From assembly GCA_938027685.1 (NCBI GenBank), contig CALJAM010000002.1, positions 124,001 to 188,000 on the forward strand: 64,000 nt of DNA. Direction: 5' to 3'. The notes under the pieces were generated by a model, which saw only the letters and a list, made by a program, of their open reading frames with translations, was not told where the DNA came from and did not search any database. The DNA comes from an uncultured Bryobacteraceae bacterium (lineage in GTDB: Bacteria > Acidobacteriota > Terriglobia > Bryobacterales > Bryobacteraceae). This document shows, piece after piece, positions 29,845 to 55,806 of this stretch; the stretch's first letter is position 1; the number at the start of each line of letters is the position of its first letter. The translations under genes and the position numbers were made by a program.

Positions 29845-29873
29845 TTGACAAGCGATCCGGGGGTGTTAACAAT
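29845..29873 (+). promoter_or_regulatory. Sigma-70-like promoter of the alkaline phosphatase gene
   Basis: A perfect TTGACA (29845-29850), then TAACAA or AACAAT at 16-17 bases. The leader to the ATG at 29894 is short and carries GGGAGG. It is one of the few places in the window with a clear -35. No PHO-box-like repeat was recognised. Confidence 0.5.
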
Positions 29874-29893
29874 TGGCGCCGTGGGAGGCGATC

Positions 29894-31858
29894 ATGAGGA
29901 GCCTGCATCGGTTGGCAGTCGAGCACTCCTTGCTCCTGATTGCCGTGTCCGGCTTGTCCTACGCGCAACTGCTCAGCATAGCCTTGCCCGAGCGTACGCG
30001 GCTGCTCGAAGACCAACGACTGGACCTTGTCATCGAGGCCCGCAACGTGACCGGTGGCGCCTTGAGCGTCAGCGCCAACGGAGTTGACCTGACCCGATTG
30101 TTCTCTGGACCGCGTGCGGTCGACCTAGACTGCGACGCCACCCCGGATGCGGTCTGGCGCGCCGACCTGGTCAGCTTCAAGACGCCCGGATGGGTCCGTC
30201 TGGAGGCCACGCTGGCCACGGCGCGCGGTACCCTTCGCGACGTGCGCGACATCCTCGTGCAGCCCTTCCCGCGGCTGGCAGCCTCGCGCAACGTGATCCT
30301 TTACATCGGCGACGGGATGACCGAGGCGTGGCGAGACGCGGGACGCATCGTGAGCCGCAGCGTCGAGACGGCTCCTGGTGTGCCCGGCTTGCGTCAGGGT
30401 TTCTATGACCGGCTGCTGGAGATGGATCGCATGCCGGTGGCCGGCGCCGTCATGCACCACAGCCTGGATCGGCTGATCCCCGACTCGGCTCCTACCGCCA
30501 CTGCCCTGGCCACCGGCAACAAGACCTTCGACGGCGGCCTAAGCGTTTTCCCGGACGGCACCGACTGTGCGTTCGGCGCCGCCGCCACCGCCGAAACGCT
30601 GCCTTACGCCTTGGACAATCCGCGCATTGAAACCCTTGCCGAATACCTGAAGCGGCGTTTCGGCTACCGCATCGGCATCGTGACCACGGCTTCCGTGGCC
30701 GACGCCACTCCGGCCGCGTTCGCAGCGCACACCGGTGACCGCGACACCGCTTTTGAAATCGTCCGACAGTACCTGGAGAATCCTTTTCTCGACGGCCAGC
30801 CGGCCCCCGACGTGCTCATGGGCGGAGGCGGCGAAAGCTTCGAGCCCGCGGTGCGCGCCGACAAGCGCGACATGTGGGCCGAGTTCGCCGCCAGGGGCTA
30901 CAAGATCGTCAAGACCGCAACCGAGCTACGAGGCGTGCGGGCCGGCGACCGGCGCGTGTTGGGCATTTTCAAGACTGCGCAGACCACCGTCCACGCCAGC
31001 GGCGTGCGGCCCGCTTCCACGGCTCACATGAACGTGGCCTACGACAAGTTGCGCCTGCTGCGCCCGGGCAGCGAGCCTCTGCCTTCGTTCGGGGGGTGGG
31101 AGGATCAGCCGTTCCTCGATCTCATGACGCAGAAGGCCATCGAGGTGCTCGCCGGGCCGGACGGCAAACAGCCTTTCTTCCTGATGGTCGAGGCGGCCTC
31201 GATTGACAAGCAATCCCACTCCAATCACTTCGCCGGGGCCGCTTGGGACGTAATCGAATTTGACAAGGCCGTCGGTGTGGGACGCTCGTGGGCCGCCGCG
31301 CGCACGCCCCGCGATACGCTGCTGGTGGCTACGGCGGACCACGGGCAGCCGGTGGTCATTATCGGCGTGGCCGAAATTCCCGACTCCGACTATTTCGATC
31401 GCACCAGCAATCTTCGCATGAGCGTCACTTCGCCCATCGGCACGCACAGCACCACCATTTACAAGGACGTAGGGGCCAATGTGCGCGCCATGATCCCGTA
31501 CGGCTCGATGGGCGGCGGGCGCACCGGACCGCCGGGCGAGATCTACGTGAATCCTTACGCCGGCTTCGGTTTTCCCAACTACGTTGACGCCGACGGCGAT
31601 GGGTACCCGGAGAACCGGGACACCTACGGCAAAGGGCTCGTGCGGCTGGCTGTGGGTTTCCGCACGGGCAACCATACCTACGAGACCCTACCGCTTTCGG
31701 CCGAGGGTCCCGGCGCCTTACTGTTCACCGGCTACTTCGACCAGACTGAGGTGCCTCTGAAAATCGCTGCGGCCTTGGCGACCGATACTTCCGATCTGGA
31801 TGCGGCGGTGGACAAGCTGATCTACACGGGCTGGTTCCCGCGGACGCCGGGCAAATGA
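29894..31858 (+). CDS. Exported alkaline phosphatase family protein
   Basis: 654 aa from the ATG at 29894, 5 bases after GGGAGG. Signal peptide (about 1-26). An N-terminal beta domain (about 27-130) carries CDATPD, a calcium-loop-like segment. The phosphatase domain begins NVILYIGDGMTEAW (metal Asp), with the nucleophile Ser in IPDSAPTATALATGN, GGGGESFEP, the metal triad EAASIDKQSHSN and TADHGQP. These are PhoA-superfamily metal ligands. It should free phosphate from organic esters in the periplasm or outside. The second calcium-like loop VDADGDGYPENRD lies in the C-terminal part. Confidence 0.9.
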   Translation: MRSLHRLAVEHSLLLIAVSGLSYAQLLSIALPERTRLLEDQRLDLVIEARNVTGGALSVSANGVDLTRLFSGPRAVDLDCDATPDAVWRADLVSFKTPGWVRLEATLATARGTLRDVRDILVQPFPRLAASRNVILYIGDGMTEAWRDAGRIVSRSVETAPGVPGLRQGFYDRLLEMDRMPVAGAVMHHSLDRLIPDSAPTATALATGNKTFDGGLSVFPDGTDCAFGAAATAETLPYALDNPRIETLAEYLKRRFGYRIGIVTTASVADATPAAFAAHTGDRDTAFEIVRQYLENPFLDGQPAPDVLMGGGGESFEPAVRADKRDMWAEFAARGYKIVKTATELRGVRAGDRRVLGIFKTAQTTVHASGVRPASTAHMNVAYDKLRLLRPGSEPLPSFGGWEDQPFLDLMTQKAIEVLAGPDGKQPFFLMVEAASIDKQSHSNHFAGAAWDVIEFDKAVGVGRSWAAARTPRDTLLVATADHGQPVVIIGVAEIPDSDYFDRTSNLRMSVTSPIGTHSTTIYKDVGANVRAMIPYGSMGGGRTGPPGEIYVNPYAGFGFPNYVDADGDGYPENRDTYGKGLVRLAVGFRTGNHTYETLPLSAEGPGALLFTGYFDQTEVPLKIAAALATDTSDLDAAVDKLIYTGWFPRTPGK

Positions 31859-31885
31859 GCACTGGGACCCCGGCGCGAGGCGGCC

Positions 31886-33313
31886 TCAATCGTCGGGAAC
31901 TGCGAATTTGTCGCCCGTGTCGGCAATCCACTGCTTCAGCCGATCGATGAGCTTGCGCCGCTCCGCCCGAAAACGGTTATTGTGCGCCAGGTTCACCTGT
32001 TCATAAGGATCCTCATTCAGGTTGAACATCAGCCAGCTCGTGTTCTCGAAGCAGACGTATTTCCAGCCGTCACTCGTGACCACCCCGCGGTACGGTTTGT
32101 TGATGGAGTCGTTGTGTCCGGTGGGAATCACGCATTGTAAATAGGCGGAATCGGGCAGGCTGGGCTGAGCGCTTTTTTCGCGTCGGAGGCGCAGGCCGGA
32201 GTAGTCCCGGCCCTCCATCCATGCGGGCGGCTTGATGCCGCATAGCCCCAGCGTGGTGGGTGCGATGTCGGGAGCGTTCAGTAGCACGGGCAAGCGCCCG
32301 GTCATGTAGCCTTCATAGGACGGCTGGCCGCCACTGATGAAGAAGGGTATGCGGATGGATTCCTCGTAGGGATTGGTCTTGCGGAACAGGCCGTGTGAGC
32401 CGAGCATGTCGCCGTGATCGGAAAAGAACAGGATATGGGTGTCGAAGTAGAGGCCCTCCTCCTGCAGGGTGCGGATGACGCGCCCCAGGTTGAAGTCGAG
32501 GTTCTCCACCATCGCCGTGTAGCCGGCCAGCTCCCGCGCGGCGCGATCGCGCACCCAACCCACATCGGGCACGTTGGAACGGAAGCGGATGGAGGCAGGC
32601 GTGTGACGCCGCAGGTATTCCGGCGGCGCGACGTAGGGATCGTGCGGAGGCTGCACGGAGCAGACGGCGAAGAAGGGCTTGCCTTTACCCGCACGCTGCG
32701 CTGCCGCCTGGTCTTTGATGAATCGGATGAGCAGGTCGGTGAGGGCGTCGGTTTCGTAGCCGGGCAGGCGGTAGTGGAATGCGTCTTTGCCCTCGCCGCC
32801 GTGAACCCAGCAGTCGTACTGGGAATTGTTGTTTTCATAGCCCACCCAGGTGTCGAACCCACCGCGCCGACGCGGATCGGTAATGAAGTGCGCCGCTCGC
32901 CCGTTGCGTTCCTTCCAGCCGGCCAGATGCCACTTGCCGAAATAGGCCGTGTGGTAGCCTGCTTCGCGGAACGGTTGCGCGATGGTCGGCTGACCTTCCG
33001 GCAGCGGGTATTCATGGCCGGGCACGCAATGGTGCGGGTAACGTCCGGTCAGTAGCGACCCGCGGAAGGGACAGCATAGGGGGAAGCCGGAGACGGCCTG
33101 TGTGAACTGCACACCCATGGAGGCGAGGTTGTCGATGTTGGGTGTGCTGACGTTCGGATCACCGGAAATGCCCAGCGTTTGCGCCCGGTGTTGATCGCCG
33201 AAAAACCAGATCACGTTGGGGCGGCGCGCCACGGCAGGGTTGCGCGGCTGGGTCTGAGCGCCGGGCTGCGGCCCGGCGGCGAGGGGCAACTGCAAAAAAA
33301 GCCGACGCTTCAT
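31886..33313 (-). CDS. Exported formylglycine-type sulfatase (1)
   Basis: 475 aa from the ATG at 33313, with GGAGG 8 bases upstream. A twin-arginine-like signal (KRRLFLQLPLAAG) precedes the sulfatase fold: PNVIWFFGDQHRAQT (metal Asp), then the formylglycine motif CCPFR in the segment LCCPFRGSLLTGRYPHH, GKWHLAGW and FFSDHGDMLGSHG. The cysteine would be oxidised to formylglycine by a maturase not seen here. It removes sulfate groups, probably from carbohydrates. A second sulfatase is at 60314. It converges with the phosphatase gene, 27 bases apart. Confidence 0.92.
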   Translation of the reverse strand: MKRRLFLQLPLAAGPQPGAQTQPRNPAVARRPNVIWFFGDQHRAQTLGISGDPNVSTPNIDNLASMGVQFTQAVSGFPLCCPFRGSLLTGRYPHHCVPGHEYPLPEGQPTIAQPFREAGYHTAYFGKWHLAGWKERNGRAAHFITDPRRRGGFDTWVGYENNNSQYDCWVHGGEGKDAFHYRLPGYETDALTDLLIRFIKDQAAAQRAGKGKPFFAVCSVQPPHDPYVAPPEYLRRHTPASIRFRSNVPDVGWVRDRAARELAGYTAMVENLDFNLGRVIRTLQEEGLYFDTHILFFSDHGDMLGSHGLFRKTNPYEESIRIPFFISGGQPSYEGYMTGRLPVLLNAPDIAPTTLGLCGIKPPAWMEGRDYSGLRLRREKSAQPSLPDSAYLQCVIPTGHNDSINKPYRGVVTSDGWKYVCFENTSWLMFNLNEDPYEQVNLAHNNRFRAERRKLIDRLKQWIADTGDKFAVPDD

Positions 33314-33519
33314 GCTGCTTTCCTCCTTGCCCGTGAACAACCGTGTCCAAGATAGTCTTGGTTGGCGGCCTGCTGCAAGCCGGCCCTGCGCTCATGCACA
33401 AGTCTGGGGCTCCAACCGCGCTGACTTTCGGCCTAGATGAGTCCGTGGAGAGGCTGCTCCGCTAGGACCGGATGGCGGGCCTCCCAACGCCAATGACATG
33501 AGGTCGACGTGCTCTGAGT

Positions 33520-34398: not shown

Positions 34399-35451
34399 CT
34401 ACGGCTCCGTCTCCCAGACCCTCAACCCGAAGCGGCTCAGAAAAATGGGAATGTGGCGATAACGGCGGTCCTCCTGCTCGATTTCGCGGATCATGGCGCG
34501 TTTGGCCGCGCGGTCTGGACCGCTGAGAATCGTCACGGAACCGCCTGTACCCCCTGCGCCGTTAACCTTCCAGCCGAGTGCCCCGTGGGCACGTGCGATT
34601 TCGATGATGCGGCGGTGATGCGGCCCCACGAGCGCCGGATGCAGATTTTCCTGCGCCTGCGTATTCTCGATCATGGCGCGACCCAGAGCCGCAAAGTCCC
34701 CGGCGTACAGCGCATCGCGCGACTTCTCGGCCGTCAGCCGCAGAGGTTTCAGCTGCGGCGCCTCCGGCCCCGCGTTTTCCAGGCTGCGGATCACCATCTG
34801 GTGCACCTCCGAGGAGGAGTGCGTCTCCCCGACGTAGATCAGCGAGAGTCGGCCTTCCAATTCCCACCAAATCGGATCCGGCACCCGGATCGGGCTGACG
34901 GCCGCGTGCGGGTAACGAAACATCTCGATGTAGTTGATGCCGCCGTAGGCGGATGCGATCTGATCCTGGATGCCGCACTGCTGCTTGAGCAGCTCGGTCT
35001 CGATCCTCTGTGCGGCCAGCGCGACCTCATGGGCCGTCAAGCGACCGGGCGTCAGACGGTCGAGCGCCCCGATCAACGCGACGCTCACCGCAGCGGAGGT
35101 GCCCGTCGAGCAGCCGCCGGGCGCTTCGCTGTAAATGGAGACTTCAATGGCGAGCTTCTCCGGCACGCCCATGTACTCGATGGCTGCCTCCAGCAGCGGG
35201 TGCTTGTCGTAGACGCCGCGCGGAGGTTCGATGGAATAGCGCTGCCCGTAGTTTTCGGCATGGATCGTGATGCGGGCCGCCTCGCCCCGATGCCGGCGCA
35301 CGCAAAGCTGAACTTCCGCGTAAGGGTAGACGGCGATGTTGAACACCTTGCCGTGTCCGGCGAACCAGGTGTCCGTCCAGCCGCCGTTATCACAGATGCG
35401 AATGGGCGCGGCGGCATTGATAATGCGAAGCGGTCGGTCTGGCGCCTTCAC
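34399..35451 (-). CDS. GHMP-family sugar kinase (HddA-like)
   Basis: 350 aa. GHMP motif 1 region INAAAPIRICDNGGWTD near the N-terminus, ATP loop PGGCSTGTSAAVSVAL (about 110-125) and the C-terminal KVNGAGGTGGSVTIL. Closest in pattern to D-glycero-D-manno-heptose 7-phosphate kinases and fucokinase-like enzymes. It phosphorylates a sugar in the cytoplasm. The start overlaps the oxidoreductase stop by 4 bases, so it is in one operon with the two oxidoreductases. The substrate is not clear. Confidence 0.85.
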   Translation of the reverse strand: MKAPDRPLRIINAAAPIRICDNGGWTDTWFAGHGKVFNIAVYPYAEVQLCVRRHRGEAARITIHAENYGQRYSIEPPRGVYDKHPLLEAAIEYMGVPEKLAIEVSIYSEAPGGCSTGTSAAVSVALIGALDRLTPGRLTAHEVALAAQRIETELLKQQCGIQDQIASAYGGINYIEMFRYPHAAVSPIRVPDPIWWELEGRLSLIYVGETHSSSEVHQMVIRSLENAGPEAPQLKPLRLTAEKSRDALYAGDFAALGRAMIENTQAQENLHPALVGPHHRRIIEIARAHGALGWKVNGAGGTGGSVTILSGPDRAAKRAMIREIEQEDRRYRHIPIFLSRFGLRVWETEP

Positions 35452-36689
35452 TGGAACTTGTACGTGCCGGGCTGGGGCAGCGGCGGCGCCTCCATCTTGA
35501 CCTCGTAGCCGAACTCCTTGGGCATCAGATCCTGCTGGGAGTTCATGATCATCTCCCAGGTGATCTCCTGCCCCGAGTAGGCCGACTCGCGCGCCATGAT
35601 GCAGGTCATCGTGCTTTCCGCCACCGCCATGCCGTGGTTGATGTAGGGACCCTCCCCCAGAATGCTCCTGACCATGTCGATGTGTTCCTGCACCTGGCCG
35701 TTGATCCCCTTAGTGCCCATGTCGCGGCCGTTCGACCGACCCTTCGTTCCGACGATCAGATCGTCTACGTTGCGGTAACAACCTTGCGGGTACTGCCGGC
35801 AGTGACTGGCGTAATGCACGCCGTTGGGATAGACGAAGTCCGAGAACATGTGATCGTAAATGTTCCCGTAAAGCTCTTCGCGCGGACGCCAGGCTGCGCC
35901 GCCCGAGGCTACCACGCGCACCGGGTGCGTTCCCATGACCCAGTTGATGAAGTCGATGTTGTGGAAGTGTTGCTCGACGATCTGATCTCCGCACAGCCAC
36001 AGGAACGAGTACCAGTTGCGGTGCTGCCATTCCATGTCGCCCCACTTGGGGTCGCGCGCCTTGGCGTGCATCACCGGACCGCTCAGGTAATTCGAATAGA
36101 GCGCCACGATTTCGCCGATCGCGCCGTCCTGGATCTTTTGCACGGTCTCGATGTACTCGCGCGTGGATCGCCGCTGCGCGCCGGACATCACGGTCAATTT
36201 CTTTTCCTCGGCCTTGCGCGCGGCGGCCATGAAGCGTCGGCAGCCGACCGGATCGGTGGCCACCGGTTTCTCAGTAAAAACGTGCTTGCCCGCTTCGACG
36301 GCCGCTTCGAAATGGATGGGTCGCCAGCCCGGCGGCGTGCAGAGCATGACGATGTCCACGTCCGTGGCGATCAGCTTCTTGTAAGCGTCGAAGCCGATGA
36401 AGCGGTACTCGGGATCGACCTTGACGCGATCGGCGATCTGCGGGTTGCTCTTCAGCTTGGCCAGGTTCTTTTCGAGATGGTCCTCGAAGATGTCCGCCAT
36501 GGCCACGACTTCGACGTTAGGGCATCCCGTCAGGATGTCGCGCACGGCGCCTGTGCCGCGGCCGCCCACGCCGATCAAGCCGGCGCGCAGCTTCGCCTGA
36601 CCCCAGCCGCGCACCAGCTCGGGACGCACGATCGTAAAAGTTGCGGCGCCGGCGCCGAGGAAGGACCTTCGGGTTTGTGTTCCTGACAC
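35448..36689 (-). CDS. Tat-exported Gfo/Idh/MocA oxidoreductase (copy 1)
   Basis: 413 aa from a GTG with GGAG 8 bases upstream. Twin-arginine signal TRRSFLGAGAATF. NAD(P)-binding GLIGVGGRGTGAVRDIL (about 38-54), then EKPVATDPVGCRRF with the catalytic-type Lys-Pro. The middle and C-terminal domains are the Gfo-type sheet. Family enzymes oxidise or reduce sugar hydroxyls, sometimes at C3. Folding with cofactor before Tat export is expected, as in glucose-fructose oxidoreductase. It is 12 bases downstream of copy 2 and very alike over its whole length. Confidence 0.93.
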   Translation of the reverse strand: MSGTQTRRSFLGAGAATFTIVRPELVRGWGQAKLRAGLIGVGGRGTGAVRDILTGCPNVEVVAMADIFEDHLEKNLAKLKSNPQIADRVKVDPEYRFIGFDAYKKLIATDVDIVMLCTPPGWRPIHFEAAVEAGKHVFTEKPVATDPVGCRRFMAAARKAEEKKLTVMSGAQRRSTREYIETVQKIQDGAIGEIVALYSNYLSGPVMHAKARDPKWGDMEWQHRNWYSFLWLCGDQIVEQHFHNIDFINWVMGTHPVRVVASGGAAWRPREELYGNIYDHMFSDFVYPNGVHYASHCRQYPQGCYRNVDDLIVGTKGRSNGRDMGTKGINGQVQEHIDMVRSILGEGPYINHGMAVAESTMTCIMARESAYSGQEITWEMIMNSQQDLMPKEFGYEVKMEAPPLPQPGTYKFQ

Positions 36690-36701
36690 GGTGTCTTCTC
36701 C

Positions 36702-38006
36702 TCAGATGAACTTGTACTGGCCCGGCACCGGCAGCGGCGGCACCTCCACCTTGGCGTCGTACTCGAAGGTCTTCGGGTAGAGATCGAGCTGGGAGTTCAT
36801 GATCATGTCCCAAGTGATCTCCTGGCCCGAGTAAGCGGCCTCGCGGCCCATGATGCAGGTCATGGTGCTTTCCGCCACCGCCATCGCCTCGTTGATGTAA
36901 GGCCCGTTGCCCAGGATGCTGTTCACCATGTCGATATGCTCCTGAACGTACGGGTCGATGCCCTTGCTGCCCATGTCGCGGCAGTTGGTGCGTCCTTTGG
37001 TGCCCACCAGCAATTCGCTCACGTTGCGGTAGATGTGCGGCAGGTTGGGATACTGCCGGCAATGGCTGGTCAAATGCACCCCGTTCGGGTAGACAAAGTC
37101 AGCGAACACGTGATCGTAGATATTGCCGTAAAGCTCCTCGCGCGGCCGCCAGGCCACGCCGCCCGAGGCCACCACGCGCACGGGGTGCGTCCCCATGAAC
37201 CAGTTGCACACGTCGATGTTATGCAGGTGCTGCTCCACGATCTGGTCTCCGCACAGCCACACGTAGGAGTACCAATTGCGGTTTTGATACTCCATGTCTC
37301 CCCACTTGGGGTTGCGTTTGCCTTTCTCGTATGGCCAGTTCGGGCCCTGGAACTGGAGCACCGGCGTTCCGATCCAGTACGCGTAGCAGGCCACGATTTC
37401 TCCGATGGCGCCGTCCCGCACCTTTTGCCAGGTCTCGACGTATTCGCGCTGCGAGCGGCGTTGCGCTCCCGACTTCACGGTCAACTTCAGTTCCTCGGAT
37501 TTCTTGGCCGCCGCCATGAAGCGTCGGCAGCCGACCGGATCGGTGGCGAAAGGCTTTTCCGCGAAGACGTGCTTCTTGGCGTTCACCGCCGCTTCGAAGT
37601 GCTCAGGCCGATAGCCGGGAGGGGTGCACAGCAGCACGATGTCGATGTCGGATGCGAGGACCTTTTTGTAGCCGTCGAAGCCGATGAAGCGATGCTCGGG
37701 GTCCACCTTGACGCGATCGGCGATCGTGGCGTTGCGCGGCGCTTCCTTGAGCTGGCGGTAGGATTTCTCCAGCCGGTCTTCGAAGATGTCGCACATCGCC
37801 ACCAGCTCTACGTTGGGGCAGCCGTTGAGGATGTTCTCGACGGCCTGCGTGCCGCGGCCGCCGCAGCCCACTAAGCCGGCGCGCAACCGCGCCGGCCCCA
37901 CGCCGCGAACCTGCTCGGGCTTGACGATCAAGAAGCTCGATGCCGCCGCAGTCTTGCCGGCGGAGGATTTCAAGAAGGATCTGCGCGTTACCGGTTCGGA
38001 ACTCAT
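36702..38006 (-). CDS. Tat-exported Gfo/Idh/MocA oxidoreductase (copy 2)
   Basis: 434 aa from the ATG at 38006 with GAGG 10 bases upstream; the longer reading overlaps pcm and is not needed. Twin-arginine signal VTRRSFLKSSAGKTAA, Rossmann motif GLVGCGGRGTQAVENIL and EKPFATDPVGCRRF match copy 1. Long identical stretches (for example NWY-Y/F-WLCGDQIVEQH and the SGQEITW-MIMNSQ region) show a tandem duplication. A small insertion relative to copy 1 (GPNWPYEKGKRN region) may alter the active-site rim. Both probably act on related sugars in the periplasm. Confidence 0.93.
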   Translation of the reverse strand: MSSEPVTRRSFLKSSAGKTAAASSFLIVKPEQVRGVGPARLRAGLVGCGGRGTQAVENILNGCPNVELVAMCDIFEDRLEKSYRQLKEAPRNATIADRVKVDPEHRFIGFDGYKKVLASDIDIVLLCTPPGYRPEHFEAAVNAKKHVFAEKPFATDPVGCRRFMAAAKKSEELKLTVKSGAQRRSQREYVETWQKVRDGAIGEIVACYAYWIGTPVLQFQGPNWPYEKGKRNPKWGDMEYQNRNWYSYVWLCGDQIVEQHLHNIDVCNWFMGTHPVRVVASGGVAWRPREELYGNIYDHVFADFVYPNGVHLTSHCRQYPNLPHIYRNVSELLVGTKGRTNCRDMGSKGIDPYVQEHIDMVNSILGNGPYINEAMAVAESTMTCIMGREAAYSGQEITWDMIMNSQLDLYPKTFEYDAKVEVPPLPVPGQYKFI

Positions 38007-38062: not shown

Positions 38063-38713
38063 TCAGCCGCGCGGCGCTGTTTGCGTCTGCCGCAGGGGCA
38101 CGAACCGGCAGTAGGTCACCACGCGCTGGCTCAGACGTCCCTCGCGTTTCCAAATGAGGCGCAGTTCCTGATCCCACCCTCCCCCCACCGGGATCACCAT
38201 GCGCCCGGGGTCCGCCAGTTGTTCCAGCAGCGCCCAGGGAGGCTCCGGCGCCGCTGCCGCCACCGAAATGGCGTCGTAAGGCGCCTCCTCGGGATAGCCG
38301 CGCGAGCCGTCCGCGCAAATCACGCGCACGTTGTGAGCCCGCCCCGCCGCCTCCAGGTTCTGCTGCGCTCGTGCGGCCAGTTCCGGAATGACCTCGAGCG
38401 CAATCACCTCCCGCGCCAGCGCCCCCAGCACCGCCGCGTGGTAGCCCGAGCCCGCACCCACTTCCAGGACCTTCTCGTCCCCGCGCAGCTCCAGGCTCTG
38501 CGTCATCAGGGCCACCATGTACGGCTGTGAAATCGTCTGCCCGTAGCCGATCGCGACCGGCTCGTCATCGTAAGCGCGATGGCGCTGGTCTTCGGGGACG
38601 AAGAGCTCGCGCGGGATCTCCCCCATCGCCGCCAACACACGTGGGTCGCGGATGCCGCGAGCACGCAGTTGATGTTCGACCATCCGCCTGCGCAATTCAG
38701 CAAAATCGATCAC
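38063..38713 (-). CDS. pcm: Protein-L-isoaspartate O-methyltransferase
   Basis: 216 aa from the GTG at 38713, chosen because GGAG lies 7 bases upstream and the length fits the family (about 210). Motifs: MVEHQLRARGIRDPRVLAAM, AYDDEPVAIGYGQTISQPY, SAM site VLEVGAGSGYHAAVLG, IPVGGGWDQEL. It repairs isoaspartyl residues in aged proteins using SAM. Fifty-six bases separate it from the oxidoreductase pair. Confidence 0.96.
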   Translation of the reverse strand: MIDFAELRRRMVEHQLRARGIRDPRVLAAMGEIPRELFVPEDQRHRAYDDEPVAIGYGQTISQPYMVALMTQSLELRGDEKVLEVGAGSGYHAAVLGALAREVIALEVIPELAARAQQNLEAAGRAHNVRVICADGSRGYPEEAPYDAISVAAAAPEPPWALLEQLADPGRMVIPVGGGWDQELRLIWKREGRLSQRVVTYCRFVPLRQTQTAPRG

Positions 38714-38861
38714 CGGCACTCTCCAGCATAGTCCCGCCGGTGACCCGAAGGACGGCTCTCGCCATCGCCCGGCAGGCAAAGACAAGCCCACGGCCGTCGC
38801 GTGACTCCTGCAACCGCCCCGGCCGCGTTCAATATTGACCGGCGCCGGCTGCGCTGATTTG

Positions 38862-42564: not shown

Positions 42565-44595
42565 TTAGCGCAACTCCTTCCAAGCCGGTAATGAGTAGTT
42601 GGCGCGGTAGTTCGATTCGTTGTGATGCGGGTTTCGGACGGGTGCGTAGATCCGCTTGTCGTTAAATGGCCGGTCCTGGGTGTAAATCCAGACGCGGTGG
42701 CTGTCCCACACCACGATCTCGTCGCGGGGATCGCCGGTGAGATCGAGGACGTTGAAAGCCAGGTCCGGATGGCCGTCGTCCGGGAACATGACGACCCGCC
42801 GCAGGTGGCCGTCGATCATGCCGCCCTCGCGCGGATTGGGCGAGAGCATGGCGTATTCGACGCCGTCGCCGCGCCAGTTCACCGGCAGGATCGGGCTACC
42901 CGTATGGATGGGTTCGCCCTGAGCCACGATGTTACCTTCGTAGTCGAACAGCGTGACGATGCCTGGATTGCGCCAGAAGTTGATGGTCATCAACTGCAGA
43001 CCGGGTACGTCCGCACGGTACTTCGCGATGCTGGGACTCTGGGCGTGACCGATGCGCACATGCCGCAAGATCCGGCCCTTCAGGTCCAACATCAGGAATC
43101 CCTCGTCGCTGGCGAACCAGTACAGCCGCGGCGGAGCCTTAGGATCCGGCCCGAAATTGCCTGCAATGACGCCGTCGGCGTGATCGTTAAGTTCGTCGTG
43201 GCTCCATAGCAGACGCCCGTCGGGCGAGTACATGGCGTATCCGATGAAAAGCTCTTCCCGCCCGTCGCCGTCCACGTCCAGCGTGAAGGGAAAGTGCCCG
43301 GTGTTGGTCCGGCCTTGCCAGAGCAGCTTCAGATCGCTATCGTAGACCCAAAAGTTGCGGTAGCGATCCTTCACCAGGATCTCCCGCTGCGCGCCGCGGC
43401 CTGAAAAATCCGCAAAGTAAATGCTGTCCCCCACTTCGAGCTCGTACGGCCGGACTTTGTTGTCTCGCGGCGCTTCCGGCATCCAGGCCCACTTCTTCAC
43501 CTTGCCGGTGGCGCCTTCCAGGATCTGGATCCTGAAGTCCCTGACCATGACGACCTCGTTGCGCCCGTCCCCGTCCACGTCGTGGATCTGGAAAGGGTTG
43601 TCGTGCGCAAGCACGTCGTTGTACGGCTCGGGACGCCCGATCTGCCAGAGCACCTTTCCCTCGAGGTTCACCGCCGTCAGGCAACTGATATGGGCGAAAG
43701 AGTTGTCCTGCACTTTCCGGATGTTTTGCGCGATGAGCATTTCCGGGCGGCCGTCGCCGTCCAAGTCGCCGAAACGGGCGTTGCGGCCGGCGCCGAAGCC
43801 GGGCGTTTCGAAGCGCTTCCAGAGCTTCGGCTGGGGATTGAGCGCCCGCAGGCGCGCAAGCTCTTCTTCGCGCCGGCGAATGCGCTCCTCGATGGCCCGC
43901 CGGGTTTCCTCGGTTGCCGTCACCACCACGTCGGTGAATCGCGCCGGGATGTTGGCCGTAATGCCGATGCGCCCGGCGGGGATCTCGTTATCGGCGGCTT
44001 CGATCAGAAGCTTCCCGTCCACATATGCGCGGATCCGGGCTCCCTGGTTCTCGACCTTCAGCGTGTAGTAGCGCAGCGTGTCGTAACGAAAAGGCGCCTG
44101 ACCCAACTCGCGCCACTCGGCGATGCGGAACTGCTTTTCGAGCGGCAGCCGCAGCCGCAGCACCGCGCGATCGCCGCCGGTGAGGCCGAAAAGGTAGTAA
44201 TGGCGGTTCGTTCGGTACCGAAACACGATGCCCGCCATCTCCTGGAGCGACAGCGGCCGCACTTTGACTTCCAGCGTGTAGTCGAACCAGTCCGGGTCTC
44301 CGGTGACCAGCGTGGGATTCATGATGCGGCGCCAGGCGTTGATTTCGTGCTGCTCGACGTAGGTCTTGCCGTCTTCGTCTCCGCCCGCCCACGAATCGGT
44401 GTGGCAGATGGCGTTCTCCCAGGGATCGAGGGGTACGCCCCTGTGCGGCAGATAGTGGTATTCCTGAACGGCGTTGGTCAGTTGCTTGATCGGTTCGGAA
44501 AGCACGCGCGGCGGCAGGCGCCGGAAATCGTCCCGGAACAGCTCCGCCGCATGAAGGGCAGGGACCGTGATTAGCGCGACAACAAGGGGGATCAT
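42565..44595 (-). CDS. Exported FG-GAP protein, possible polysaccharide lyase-like
   Basis: 676 aa. Signal peptide MIPLVVALITVPALHAA. Residues about 18-215 form a LamG/DUF1080-like jelly roll (TLEVKVRPLSLQEMAGIVFRY, RAYVDGKLLIEA). A short coiled segment (about 218-235) leads to a propeller with calcium-type loops FGDLDGDGRPEMLIA, HDVDGDGRNEVVMV, LDVDGDGREELFI and DLTGDPRDEIVVW. The C-terminus (ESNYRANYSLPAW) resembles the end of rhamnogalacturonan-lyase (PL11) proteins. A carbohydrate role is likely; lyase activity is not proven. Start lies 6 bases after TACAAC, a poor -10. Confidence 0.78.
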   Translation of the reverse strand: MIPLVVALITVPALHAAELFRDDFRRLPPRVLSEPIKQLTNAVQEYHYLPHRGVPLDPWENAICHTDSWAGGDEDGKTYVEQHEINAWRRIMNPTLVTGDPDWFDYTLEVKVRPLSLQEMAGIVFRYRTNRHYYLFGLTGGDRAVLRLRLPLEKQFRIAEWRELGQAPFRYDTLRYYTLKVENQGARIRAYVDGKLLIEAADNEIPAGRIGITANIPARFTDVVVTATEETRRAIEERIRRREEELARLRALNPQPKLWKRFETPGFGAGRNARFGDLDGDGRPEMLIAQNIRKVQDNSFAHISCLTAVNLEGKVLWQIGRPEPYNDVLAHDNPFQIHDVDGDGRNEVVMVRDFRIQILEGATGKVKKWAWMPEAPRDNKVRPYELEVGDSIYFADFSGRGAQREILVKDRYRNFWVYDSDLKLLWQGRTNTGHFPFTLDVDGDGREELFIGYAMYSPDGRLLWSHDELNDHADGVIAGNFGPDPKAPPRLYWFASDEGFLMLDLKGRILRHVRIGHAQSPSIAKYRADVPGLQLMTINFWRNPGIVTLFDYEGNIVAQGEPIHTGSPILPVNWRGDGVEYAMLSPNPREGGMIDGHLRRVVMFPDDGHPDLAFNVLDLTGDPRDEIVVWDSHRVWIYTQDRPFNDKRIYAPVRNPHHNESNYRANYSLPAWKELR

Positions 44596-54987: not shown

Positions 54988-55806
54988 TCAGCGCTTGACG
55001 ATCGGCCGCAGCGGCCTCACGTAGATGGAACGGAACGCCACCGGCCCGTGATCGCCTTGCAGCATGATGGGGTTCTCCGGCGCTTCGGCGATCGGCATGT
55101 GCGCGCGCGTCGGGCCGTCCACTTCCACGTTGACCTGCACGGGAAGCCCGTTGTGCAGCACGCGGATGAAACGCGCGTTCTCGATCTTGCGCCCCGAGGC
55201 GTCGAAACGCGGGGCACGGAACCAGATATGAAACGACTGCCACTCGCCCGGCCGCCGGCTCGCGTTGCGCAAAGGCGGCGAGCCGCCCACTCCTTTACCG
55301 TCGATCCACCGATGATAAATCGCGCCGCAATCGGACGTTCTTAGCGGTTCCGGTGAGCCCCAACTGTCGAAGATCTGCACCTCGTAAAGGCCGTGCAGAT
55401 ACACGCCCGAGTTCGAGCCCTTGGCCAGCATGAATTCGAGGTAAAGCTCGATGTCACCGAACTTCTCCTCGGTCACCAGGTTCACGGTCCGCCCGTTCGG
55501 ACCGTTGAGCAACCGGTCTCCCGGAATGGGCACCGCGAACAGGCGCGTCGGCGCCAGGTAGGGTTCCCAGCGCACCCCGCGCGTAGTCGTCCATTCGTTG
55601 GGCAGCTTGTCGTCCTGAGGGCGCCAGCCCGTCAGGTCGCGGCCGTTGAACAGAGACCGCCAACCTTCCTCCAGCAGGAAGGGCGGATCGCCGTGATGCT
55701 CGCCGTCGTTCAACTCGAGGAGTTTCTGGGCGGTCAGTGAGCAGCATGCAAGCAGAAGGACAAGAGCGACGCGGGACAGCTTGCGCATAGCTTTATTCTG
55801 AGCCAA
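54988..55806 (-). CDS. Exported DUF1080 (3-keto-disaccharide hydrolase-like) protein
   Basis: 272 aa from a TTG at 55806, preferred since GGAGG lies 6 bases upstream; the ATG at 55788 is too far from it. Signal peptide (about 8-27). DUF1080 concanavalin-like fold: GWRSLFNGRDLTGWRP, FGDIELYLEFML, NSGVYLHGLYEVQIFDSWG, PGEWQSFHIWFRAPRF, then VNVEVDGPTRAHMPI. Some family members cleave 3-keto-glycosides. Located downstream of carB but on the same strand with its own ribosome site. Confidence 0.88.
   Translation of the reverse strand: MAQNKAMRKLSRVALVLLLACCSLTAQKLLELNDGEHHGDPPFLLEEGWRSLFNGRDLTGWRPQDDKLPNEWTTTRGVRWEPYLAPTRLFAVPIPGDRLLNGPNGRTVNLVTEEKFGDIELYLEFMLAKGSNSGVYLHGLYEVQIFDSWGSPEPLRTSDCGAIYHRWIDGKGVGGSPPLRNASRRPGEWQSFHIWFRAPRFDASGRKIENARFIRVLHNGLPVQVNVEVDGPTRAHMPIAEAPENPIMLQGDHGPVAFRSIYVRPLRPIVKR

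Follow-up and report, generated by a model that had tools for sequence, protein, structure and literature searches.

The locus considered here raises the question of why two oxidoreductases that appear to be exported should be encoded directly ahead of a sugar kinase in which no export signal is seen. The genes lie in a 64,000-nucleotide stretch of contig CALJAM010000002.1 (positions 124,001 to 188,000, forward strand) from an uncultured Bryobacteraceae bacterium, hereafter the window, which is part of contig C2 of a 3.93-Mb genome designated G000. They encode two Gfo/Idh/MocA oxidoreductases, Gfo1 and Gfo2, and a GHMP sugar kinase (Table 1). The unit is genuine and compact, it recurs in a small number of genomes, and its parts are of known kinds. 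As a possible and tentatively preferred reading of its function, it would combine exported glycoside chemistry on a bound cofactor with a C1 kinase for an L-fucose-type sugar.

In the order of transcription, with all three genes on the minus strand, Gfo1 is followed after a 12-base gap by Gfo2, the stop codon of which overlaps the kinase start by 4 bases; this anatomy, reported in the initial annotation of the locus, was confirmed with its coordinates. Both Gfo proteins exceed the Pfam cut-offs for PF01408 and PF22725 (60.3 and 30.3 bits for Gfo1, 53.4 and 31.3 bits for Gfo2; cut-offs of 24 and 27), which places them in the Gfo/Idh/MocA superfamily, and the kinase exceeds those for PF00288 and PF08544, as a two-domain GHMP kinase. 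Shine-Dalgarno-like sequences (GAGG and GAGGAG) precede the starts of Gfo1 and Gfo2, and no ribosome-site-like sequence is evident ahead of the kinase start (all by eye), which fits translational coupling of the kinase to Gfo2. The three genes probably constitute a sugar-handling unit with such coupling. The same order, including the 4-base overlap, recurs in four genomes from at least two genera, namely G000, the same-genus genome G130, the Bryobacteraceae metagenome-assembled genome SKYB110 (locus L032), which is the closest named relative by kinase within the genome collection, and G068, the contig of which is also locus L034. In the first three the overlapping bases are GTGA; in G068 they are TTGA, where TTG is a candidate start codon. 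This recurrence was judged to exceed chance. Of the earlier interpretation, the part that stands is the tight packing of two Gfo genes bearing Tat-type signals with a GHMP kinase in which no signal is seen; its remaining claims found little support.

The sugar pocket of the kinase can be compared with that of the L-fucokinase domain of FKP from Bacteroides fragilis (structures 9iip and 9iit). Passages of PMC11982464 describe FKP residues R592, W599, D601, T602, G759, Q761, and D762 as surrounding fucose-1-phosphate, E751 and D762 as essential, and the W599A and D601A substitutions as causing a more than 3000-fold loss of kcat/Km for fucose. All eight of these pocket residues are present in the kinase, as R18 (R592), W25 (W599), D27 (D601), T28 (T602), E151 (E751), G160 (G759), Q162 (Q761), and D163 (D762). 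The spacing from R18 to T28 is identical to that in FKP and consistent with where the structural alignment begins (model residue 6 on chain residue 580), and between E151 and G160 the kinase has one additional residue. R18, W25, D27, and T28 are kept in 90 of 91 close kinases, the remaining row being a gap, and E151, G160, Q162, and D163 in 91 of 91. Based on these residues, we predict that the kinase is a C1 kinase for an L-fucose-type sugar, which would phosphorylate the C1 hydroxyl of L-fucose, D-arabinose, or L-galactose. FKP itself is described, in parts of PMC12732313, as accepting C5-substituted analogues including D-arabinose.

By overall fold the kinase lies nearest to heptokinases. 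An AlphaFold2 model built from 43 sequences (predicted local distance difference test score, pLDDT, 87.8) matched the heptokinase WcbL best (Z 38.0, 2.5 Å, 333 aligned residues), with further matches to FKP (Z 34.9 and 33.8) and galactokinases (Z ~34). The best profile was likewise that of the heptokinase HddA (NF049969, 81.6 bits, cut-off 600), while the model for the bifunctional FKP (PRK13412) gave 49 bits over its kinase part only (cut-off 721) and that for galactokinase (TIGR00131) 33.1 bits (cut-off 226.65). FKP has the same fold, the eight contacts, and the first-motif spacing in common with the kinase, whereas the kinase has no guanylyltransferase domain and shows 21-23% identity to FKP in the structural alignment. 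A heptokinase, although nearest in fold and profile, was judged unlikely, because the score falls below the cut-off and the residues that heptokinases (4usk, 3k85) carry at the W25 and T28 positions, Gly with Val or Leu, are not kept; they are G and V in WcbL and G and L in the HddA-like kinase of G000, which is encoded by a separate gene near a GmhA-like gene (by eye). At these positions, W and T are found in two Fkp proteins of the order. The heptose substrate that had been suggested for the locus is therefore disfavored by the pocket. Weaker GHMP matches of 27-33% identity were set aside; those that were mapped look mostly like another, HddA-like family, several lying beside GmhA- or nucleotidyltransferase-like genes (by eye).

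Both Gfo proteins begin with a TRRSFL motif followed by a moderately or weakly hydrophobic 12-residue stretch and then by (R/K)PExVRGxG ahead of the Rossmann core. The mean hydropathy over the 12 residues is 1.18 in Gfo1 and 1.78 in Gfo2, with a family median of 1.48. By criteria taken from parts of a review of twin-arginine translocation (Tat; PMC7317946), both proteins show the feature of a Tat substrate, a twin arginine (RR) ahead of a weakly hydrophobic segment of ~12 residues, and TatC is encoded in G000. Among 48 distinct N-termini from 102 entries, RR is conserved in 47 and the wider motif in 42. SKYB110 Gfo1 and the L190 protein of G002, in which the Rossmann pattern fails, were left out of this count; both show RR by eye. 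The N-terminal Rossmann stretch of SKYB110 Gfo1 is a G/R-rich garble in a protein otherwise 90% identical, perhaps an assembly frameshift. The single exception to RR is the kinase-linked Gfo2 of G068, which enters the Rossmann core after only a short lead, with GAGGAG ahead of its ATG and no signal in the three frames read upstream. It is this copy that overlaps the kinase with its stop codon; in G068, therefore, one Gfo protein should act outside and one inside, unless Gfo2 rides with Gfo1. The Tat signals noted earlier are likely genuine in the window, even though the kinase-adjoining Gfo2 of G068 has none.

Profiles, sequence matches, and folds place Gfo1 and Gfo2 in the superfamily without selecting a reaction. 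Both proteins score below the cut-off of every curated reaction model listed, including the BT_2158-type glycoside 3-dehydrogenases (NF058561; 37.5 and 44.5 bits, cut-off 750) and inositol 2-dehydrogenase (TIGR04380; 72.5 and 73.9 bits, cut-off 355). The NF058561 match begins at residue 7, within the signal region, and the BT_2158-type systems, although members of the same superfamily, differ further from this unit in that it contains no 3-keto lyase or hydrolase. Sequence matches to 3ec7, AAOR, DgpA, and inositol dehydrogenases are partial; AAOR (5a02) is the second-best match of Gfo1, at 44.8 bits over residues 96-215. A model of Gfo2 (pLDDT 81.6) gave fold Z scores of 30.5-34.2 across the 50 matches listed, with NAD-dependent (oxidoreductive) sulfoquinovosidases on top (8qc5: Z 34.2, 2.6 Å, 319 aligned residues, 22% identity), a match tied with other Gfo/Idh/MocA structures and so no sign of a shared reaction. 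The fold search was set aside as a guide to the reaction, all 50 of these matches lying within 4 Z units.

Free NAD(P) is not expected outside the inner membrane, so an exported Gfo protein is expected to carry a bound cofactor and to perform no net oxidation. The Asp that ends the second strand (D73/D66) presumably indicates NAD rather than the NADP of GFOR. In the tentatively preferred reading, Gfo1 and Gfo2 would fold in the cytoplasm around tightly bound NAD, be exported by the Tat system, and carry out transient redox chemistry at a ring carbon of a glycoside or sugar outside the inner membrane. This chemistry may be a 3-keto type cleavage, an epimerization, or a dismutation, and the two proteins would take related but different substrates or steps. 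The released aldose would then be imported by a transporter encoded elsewhere and phosphorylated at C1. A released reducing sugar suits a C1 kinase better than an aldonolactone. The periplasmic oxidation followed by phosphorylation that the initial annotation envisaged does not hold up in this respect, since the kinase resembles kinases of the C1 hydroxyl, which a sugar oxidized at C1, as by GFOR, no longer has. The linked sugar transporter that this scheme called for was not recognized near the pair in the window, G130, G068, or SKYB110 in a library scan covering part of the genes. The window contains a gene for a PF06439 3-keto-disaccharide hydrolase (DUF1080) at a distance of 17 kb from the pair; within ~6 kb of the pair in G068 (L173) there are a DUF1080 gene, a sulfatase gene, and a GH28-like gene.

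The two oxidoreductases had been described as highly similar, and their identity is indeed 75% by HMMER and 72% over a separate alignment. The duplicate that had also been supposed is not a recent one. A tree was built from 52 homologues, 50 of them different (proteins of fewer than 300 residues and genomes outside the label list were dropped). It assigns Gfo1 to clade A (11 rows, support 100/99) and Gfo2 to clade B (15 rows, support 99/97), and most other homologues form clade C (23 rows, support 98/92). Clades A and B each span several genera; in the tree sample, clade A occurs in family f1 only and clade B in f1 and f2. In G138 the A and B copies lie on different contigs, and the tandem pair found in G135 combines a C type with a B type and has no adjoining kinase, the genome showing no kinase match at E 1e-20. 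A recent tandem duplication was rejected, and the 72-75% identity reflects slow evolution rather than a recent event, because the two proteins belong to older, separately supported clades.

The differences between the paralogues are concentrated in one segment. Thirteen positions are fixed differently between clades A and B (at least 80% in each): W211, G213, and T214 of Gfo1 (Y201, S203, and G204 of Gfo2) cluster just ahead of an insertion common to all clade A rows, and N242, L261, V266, and F270 flank or lie inside the EQHxHNID motif region. The EKP and EQHxHNID motifs are common to both paralogues; in Gfo2 numbering, E140 and K141 are invariant and P142 is kept in at least 90% of 17 aligned proteins. 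Other members of these clades have other surroundings. Clade B Gfo genes in G049 and G030 follow a gene for a TonB-dependent receptor and one for a 590-residue protein; in L186 the receptor was confirmed by Pfam and the 590-residue protein has no Pfam match, and the arrangement in L188 was assigned by eye. Clade C Gfo genes in G020, G145, and G102 lie ~2-3 kb from a different GHMP kinase, of the VDLAGGTLDIWPLY type (Pfam-checked in L191 only); a Rce1-like gene comes next in L191, as do GAPDH-like genes, judged by eye, in L178 and L183. The Gfo gene is adjoined by one for a pyridoxal-dependent decarboxylase in L185, according to Pfam, and also in L177, L178, and L191 as judged by eye.

Linkage between the pair and the kinase is confined to few genomes. 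A close kinase (at least 65% identity) is present in 12 of the 150 genomes of the order, and the pair adjoins it in 3 of these 12; an unlinked kinase in relatives, which had been named beforehand as a finding that would count against the coupling, is largely what was observed. In a scan of species genomes, in which the best 80 of 190 kinase loci were used, the pair adjoins the kinase in two loci, one of them the G068 contig again, and a Gfo fragment of 66-69% identity lies at the edge of locus L063, more than 7 kb from the kinase. Strong Gfo homologues (best E ≤1e-100) occur in 77 of the 150 genomes, five of which also have the close kinase. Other Gfo genes are found near the kinase as well. 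In G071 a different, RR-bearing Gfo gene, scoring 297 bits to BT_2158_fam (cut-off 750), lies directly downstream of it, a Gfo match occupies the same place in G089, and another lies 3 kb downstream in G022. Among loci not labeled Acidobacteriota, some Gfo gene lies within 5 kb of the kinase in 21 of 73, in a count over 90 kinase loci that includes some contigs twice (L033/L199, L034/L173, and L097/L192). This proximity is a modest sign of sugar-catabolic surroundings rather than of a fixed partnership.

The kinase family extends well beyond these genomes. Close relatives (at least 63% identity) occur in Chloroflexota, Verrucomicrobiota, Planctomycetota, Gemmatimonadota, Latescibacterota, Spirochaetota, Acidobacteriota, and others, and the window kinase forms a group with its counterparts in G130, SKYB110, G068, and G118 that is weakly supported as a whole. 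Open reading frames at the scanned loci were called by composition score, which missed 3 of 92 kinases, and G107 was seen with short flanks only. In L110, from a Chloroflexota lineage, an L-fucose isomerase gene (over the NCBIfam cut-off) lies 111 bases upstream of the kinase; in L098, which carries the sister kinase, the upstream protein clusters with this isomerase (assigned by clustering only), and a small opposite reading frame lies between. In genus g9, scanned in G089, a PfkB-type gene (KDG/KDGal-kinase-like, under the cut-off) and an esterase-like gene precede the kinase, and in SKYB110 an enolase-superfamily gene, from a cluster in which the member in L084 is scored as a galactonate dehydratase, and a gene for an aldolase of KDPG/KHG type lie 3-5 kb downstream. 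G000 has five matches to glycoside hydrolase family 29 (GH29) alpha-L-fucosidases, as well as a FucI-like protein (Fucose_iso_C, 30.6 bits, cut-off 29.3) that is not a classical FucI. It has no match to the fucose-1-phosphate guanylyltransferase family PF07959, so that no GDP-fucose salvage through the usual domain can be seen. A family of ~370-390-residue proteins is encoded directly downstream of the kinase in six Latescibacterota, Handelsmanbacteria, and Gemmatimonadota loci; its L095 member has no Pfam match. In the listed titles and abstract openings of the open-license literature, neither the kinase family nor Gfo-kinase pairs are described, the slashed name of the Gfo/Idh/MocA family being unsearchable.

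Several observations weigh against the combination of exported bound-cofactor chemistry with a fucose-type C1 kinase. On the side of the oxidoreductases, the fold matches are tied across many superfamily members, no 3-keto hydrolase lies within the unit, and the signal regions have charged residues after the hydrophobic stretch and no evident AxA-type cleavage site, RGVG and RGWG standing at that place (by eye). On the side of the kinase, fold and profile score lie nearest to heptokinases and not to FKP, and H211 and N297, outside the contacts, stand where the Fkp proteins of the order have R and A. Its neighbors vary widely between loci, and the L-fucose isomerase neighbor is confined to one lineage, at 2 of the best 80 of 190 loci. 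GH29 matches occur in 124 of the 150 genomes of the order and so form no special link; classical FucI was not seen in the order, where Fucose_iso_N1 exceeds its cut-off in 4 of 150 genomes, all partial matches of 29-31 bits. G118 and G026 each carry the kinase plus two PF07959 matches in frames of ~1000 codons, one of which in each genome shows the kinase motif, so that the kinase need not be their fucokinase. Across the order, strong Gfo homologues are present in 5 of 12 kinase genomes and in 72 of 138 others (Fisher p 0.56), so the two families are not tied. Enrichment beyond the Acidobacteriota is modest: in a sample of 20 of the 73 loci, with 1008 Gfo matches in 97.8 Mb, 5 loci were observed where at least 1.9 were expected (P 0.04), in a rough Poisson comparison. 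Four of the sampled genomes reached a scoring cap, which makes the expectation a lower bound, and the observed count, obtained with a stricter search than the expected one, may likewise be low.

Table 1. Positions of the genes, signals, and motifs of the unit and of neighboring and related features
Feature	Sequence	Positions	Strand	Remarks
pcm (protein-L-isoaspartate methyltransferase)	window	38063..38791	minus	ends 56 bases upstream of Gfo1
Gfo1, Gfo/Idh/MocA oxidoreductase	window	36702..38006	minus	434 aa; ATG start; paralogue clade A
Gfo1 putative Tat signal	window	37896..38006	minus	residues 1-37; TRRSFLK, h-region GKTAAASSFLIV, KPEQVRGVG; end placed by eye
Gfo1 motif EKP	Gfo1	residues 150-152
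Gfo1 motif GDQIVEQHLHNID	Gfo1	from residue 253
Gfo2, Gfo/Idh/MocA oxidoreductase	window	35448..36689	minus	413 aa; GTG start; paralogue clade B
Gfo2 putative Tat signal	window	36600..36689	minus	residues 1-30; TRRSFLG, h-region FLGAGAATFTIV, RPELVRGWG; end placed by eye
Gfo2 motif EKP	Gfo2	residues 140-142
Gfo2 motif GDQIVEQHFHNID	Gfo2	from residue 234
Overlap of Gfo2 stop and kinase start	window	35448..35451	minus	4 bases, GTGA
GHMP sugar kinase	window	34399..35451	minus	350 aa; GTG start; no signal seen (by eye)
Alkaline phosphatase and sulfatase genes	window	29873-33340		adjoin PhzF gene
Secreted-looking protein	window	42565-44595	minus	676 aa
3-keto-disaccharide hydrolase (DUF1080)	window	54988-55806	minus	PF06439
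Gfo2 of G068	L173	9008-10162		no RR
Gfo1 of SKYB110	L032	3-1352
Clade B Gfo gene region, G049	L186	4833-10848	minus
Clade B Gfo gene region, G030	L188	5407-11500	minus
Clade C Gfo gene, G020	L178	8276-9322
Clade C Gfo gene, G145	L183	7041-8093
Clade C Gfo gene, G102	L191	9000-10007
~370-390 aa family	L067	9058-10170
~370-390 aa family	L073	9001-10173
~370-390 aa family	L075	9115-9366		split
~370-390 aa family	L080	9148-10332
~370-390 aa family	L082	9026-10183
~370-390 aa family	L095	1110-2228

The wider surroundings of the unit differ between genomes. A pcm look-alike also lies directly upstream of the pair in G130 and is absent from that place in G068 (by eye); co-transcription of pcm with the three genes is possible. 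No alkaline phosphatase or sulfatase gene was called in G130 at the place that they occupy in the window, which suggests a local insertion or loss. The secreted-looking protein of the window has a C-terminal match to rhamnogalacturonan lyase family 11 and FG-GAP repeats, and a similar gene lies near the pair in G130 (by eye).

The observations on linkage would also be accommodated if the kinase were a widespread catabolic enzyme whose gene landed behind an unrelated Gfo pair in an ancestor of a few Bryobacteraceae, with no pathway in common. We regard this as somewhat unlikely. Its cross-phylum family with changing neighbors, the lack of genome-level co-occurrence with the Gfo family, and the kinase-free tandem pair of G135 all speak for such an origin, as do the 61 Gfo/Idh/MocA matches of G000 (60 over the cut-off), a number at which a Gfo gene adjoining another gene is not rare in itself. 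Chance placement is harder to reconcile with the recurrence of order and overlap in four genomes, and with the different, RR-bearing Gfo gene that directly follows the kinase in G071 and the Gfo match at the same place in G089. The hetero-oligomer alternative, a Gfo1-Gfo2 complex in which Gfo2 is exported on the Tat signal of Gfo1, would explain the signal-free Gfo2 of G068, which starts just ahead of its Rossmann core, and hitchhiker export by Tat is known for PaoABC (PMC4273604). Most of 20 mapped regions hold a single Gfo family member, however, and such a complex is very unlikely.

The remaining alternatives concern the reaction. The Gfo proteins could be dismutases like GFOR from Zymomonas or AAOR from Caulobacter, converting one sugar to an aldonolactone on a bound cofactor while another is reduced, with the kinase drawing an aldose from the same pool. 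GFOR and AAOR bear Tat signals and belong to the same superfamily, as parts of PMC4628093 report, and AAOR ranks high among the sequence matches of Gfo1. The similarity is nevertheless low, covers part of the chain, and is no better than that to 3ec7 or DgpA and below every model cut-off, and NAD rather than NADP is predicted here, by a rule that we take to apply to the second-strand Asp. The probability of this dismutation is low. Net periplasmic oxidation of a hexose or heptose, with import and phosphorylation of the product, as first proposed for the locus, is improbable to a similar degree. The Tat-type signals, the overlapping kinase gene, and the nearness of the kinase to heptokinases are compatible with it. 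On the other side stand the C1-hydroxyl type of the kinase, by fold and pocket, for which a lactone or aldonate should not serve, the expected lack of free NAD(P) outside the inner membrane, and the absence of the heptokinase residues at W25 and T28.

The locus matters at two levels. Gfo genes are very numerous in G000, and for this pair no close relative of tested function emerges from either profiles or solved structures; its genomic association with a kinase whose sugar pocket can be read provides a concrete first candidate substrate. More broadly, the kinase may found an uncharacterized cross-phylum family of free-standing C1 kinases for L-fucose- or D-arabinose-type sugars that serve breakdown rather than GDP-fucose salvage, a few Bryobacteraceae having coupled it to a two-sided Gfo system with paralogues outside and inside, as in G068. 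This broader proposal is unlikely; the role in breakdown is suggested because an L-fucose isomerase or KDG-kinase-like gene adjoins the kinase in some genomes and G000 has no guanylyltransferase match. The kinase family could reveal an unrecognized route for fucose-type sugars.

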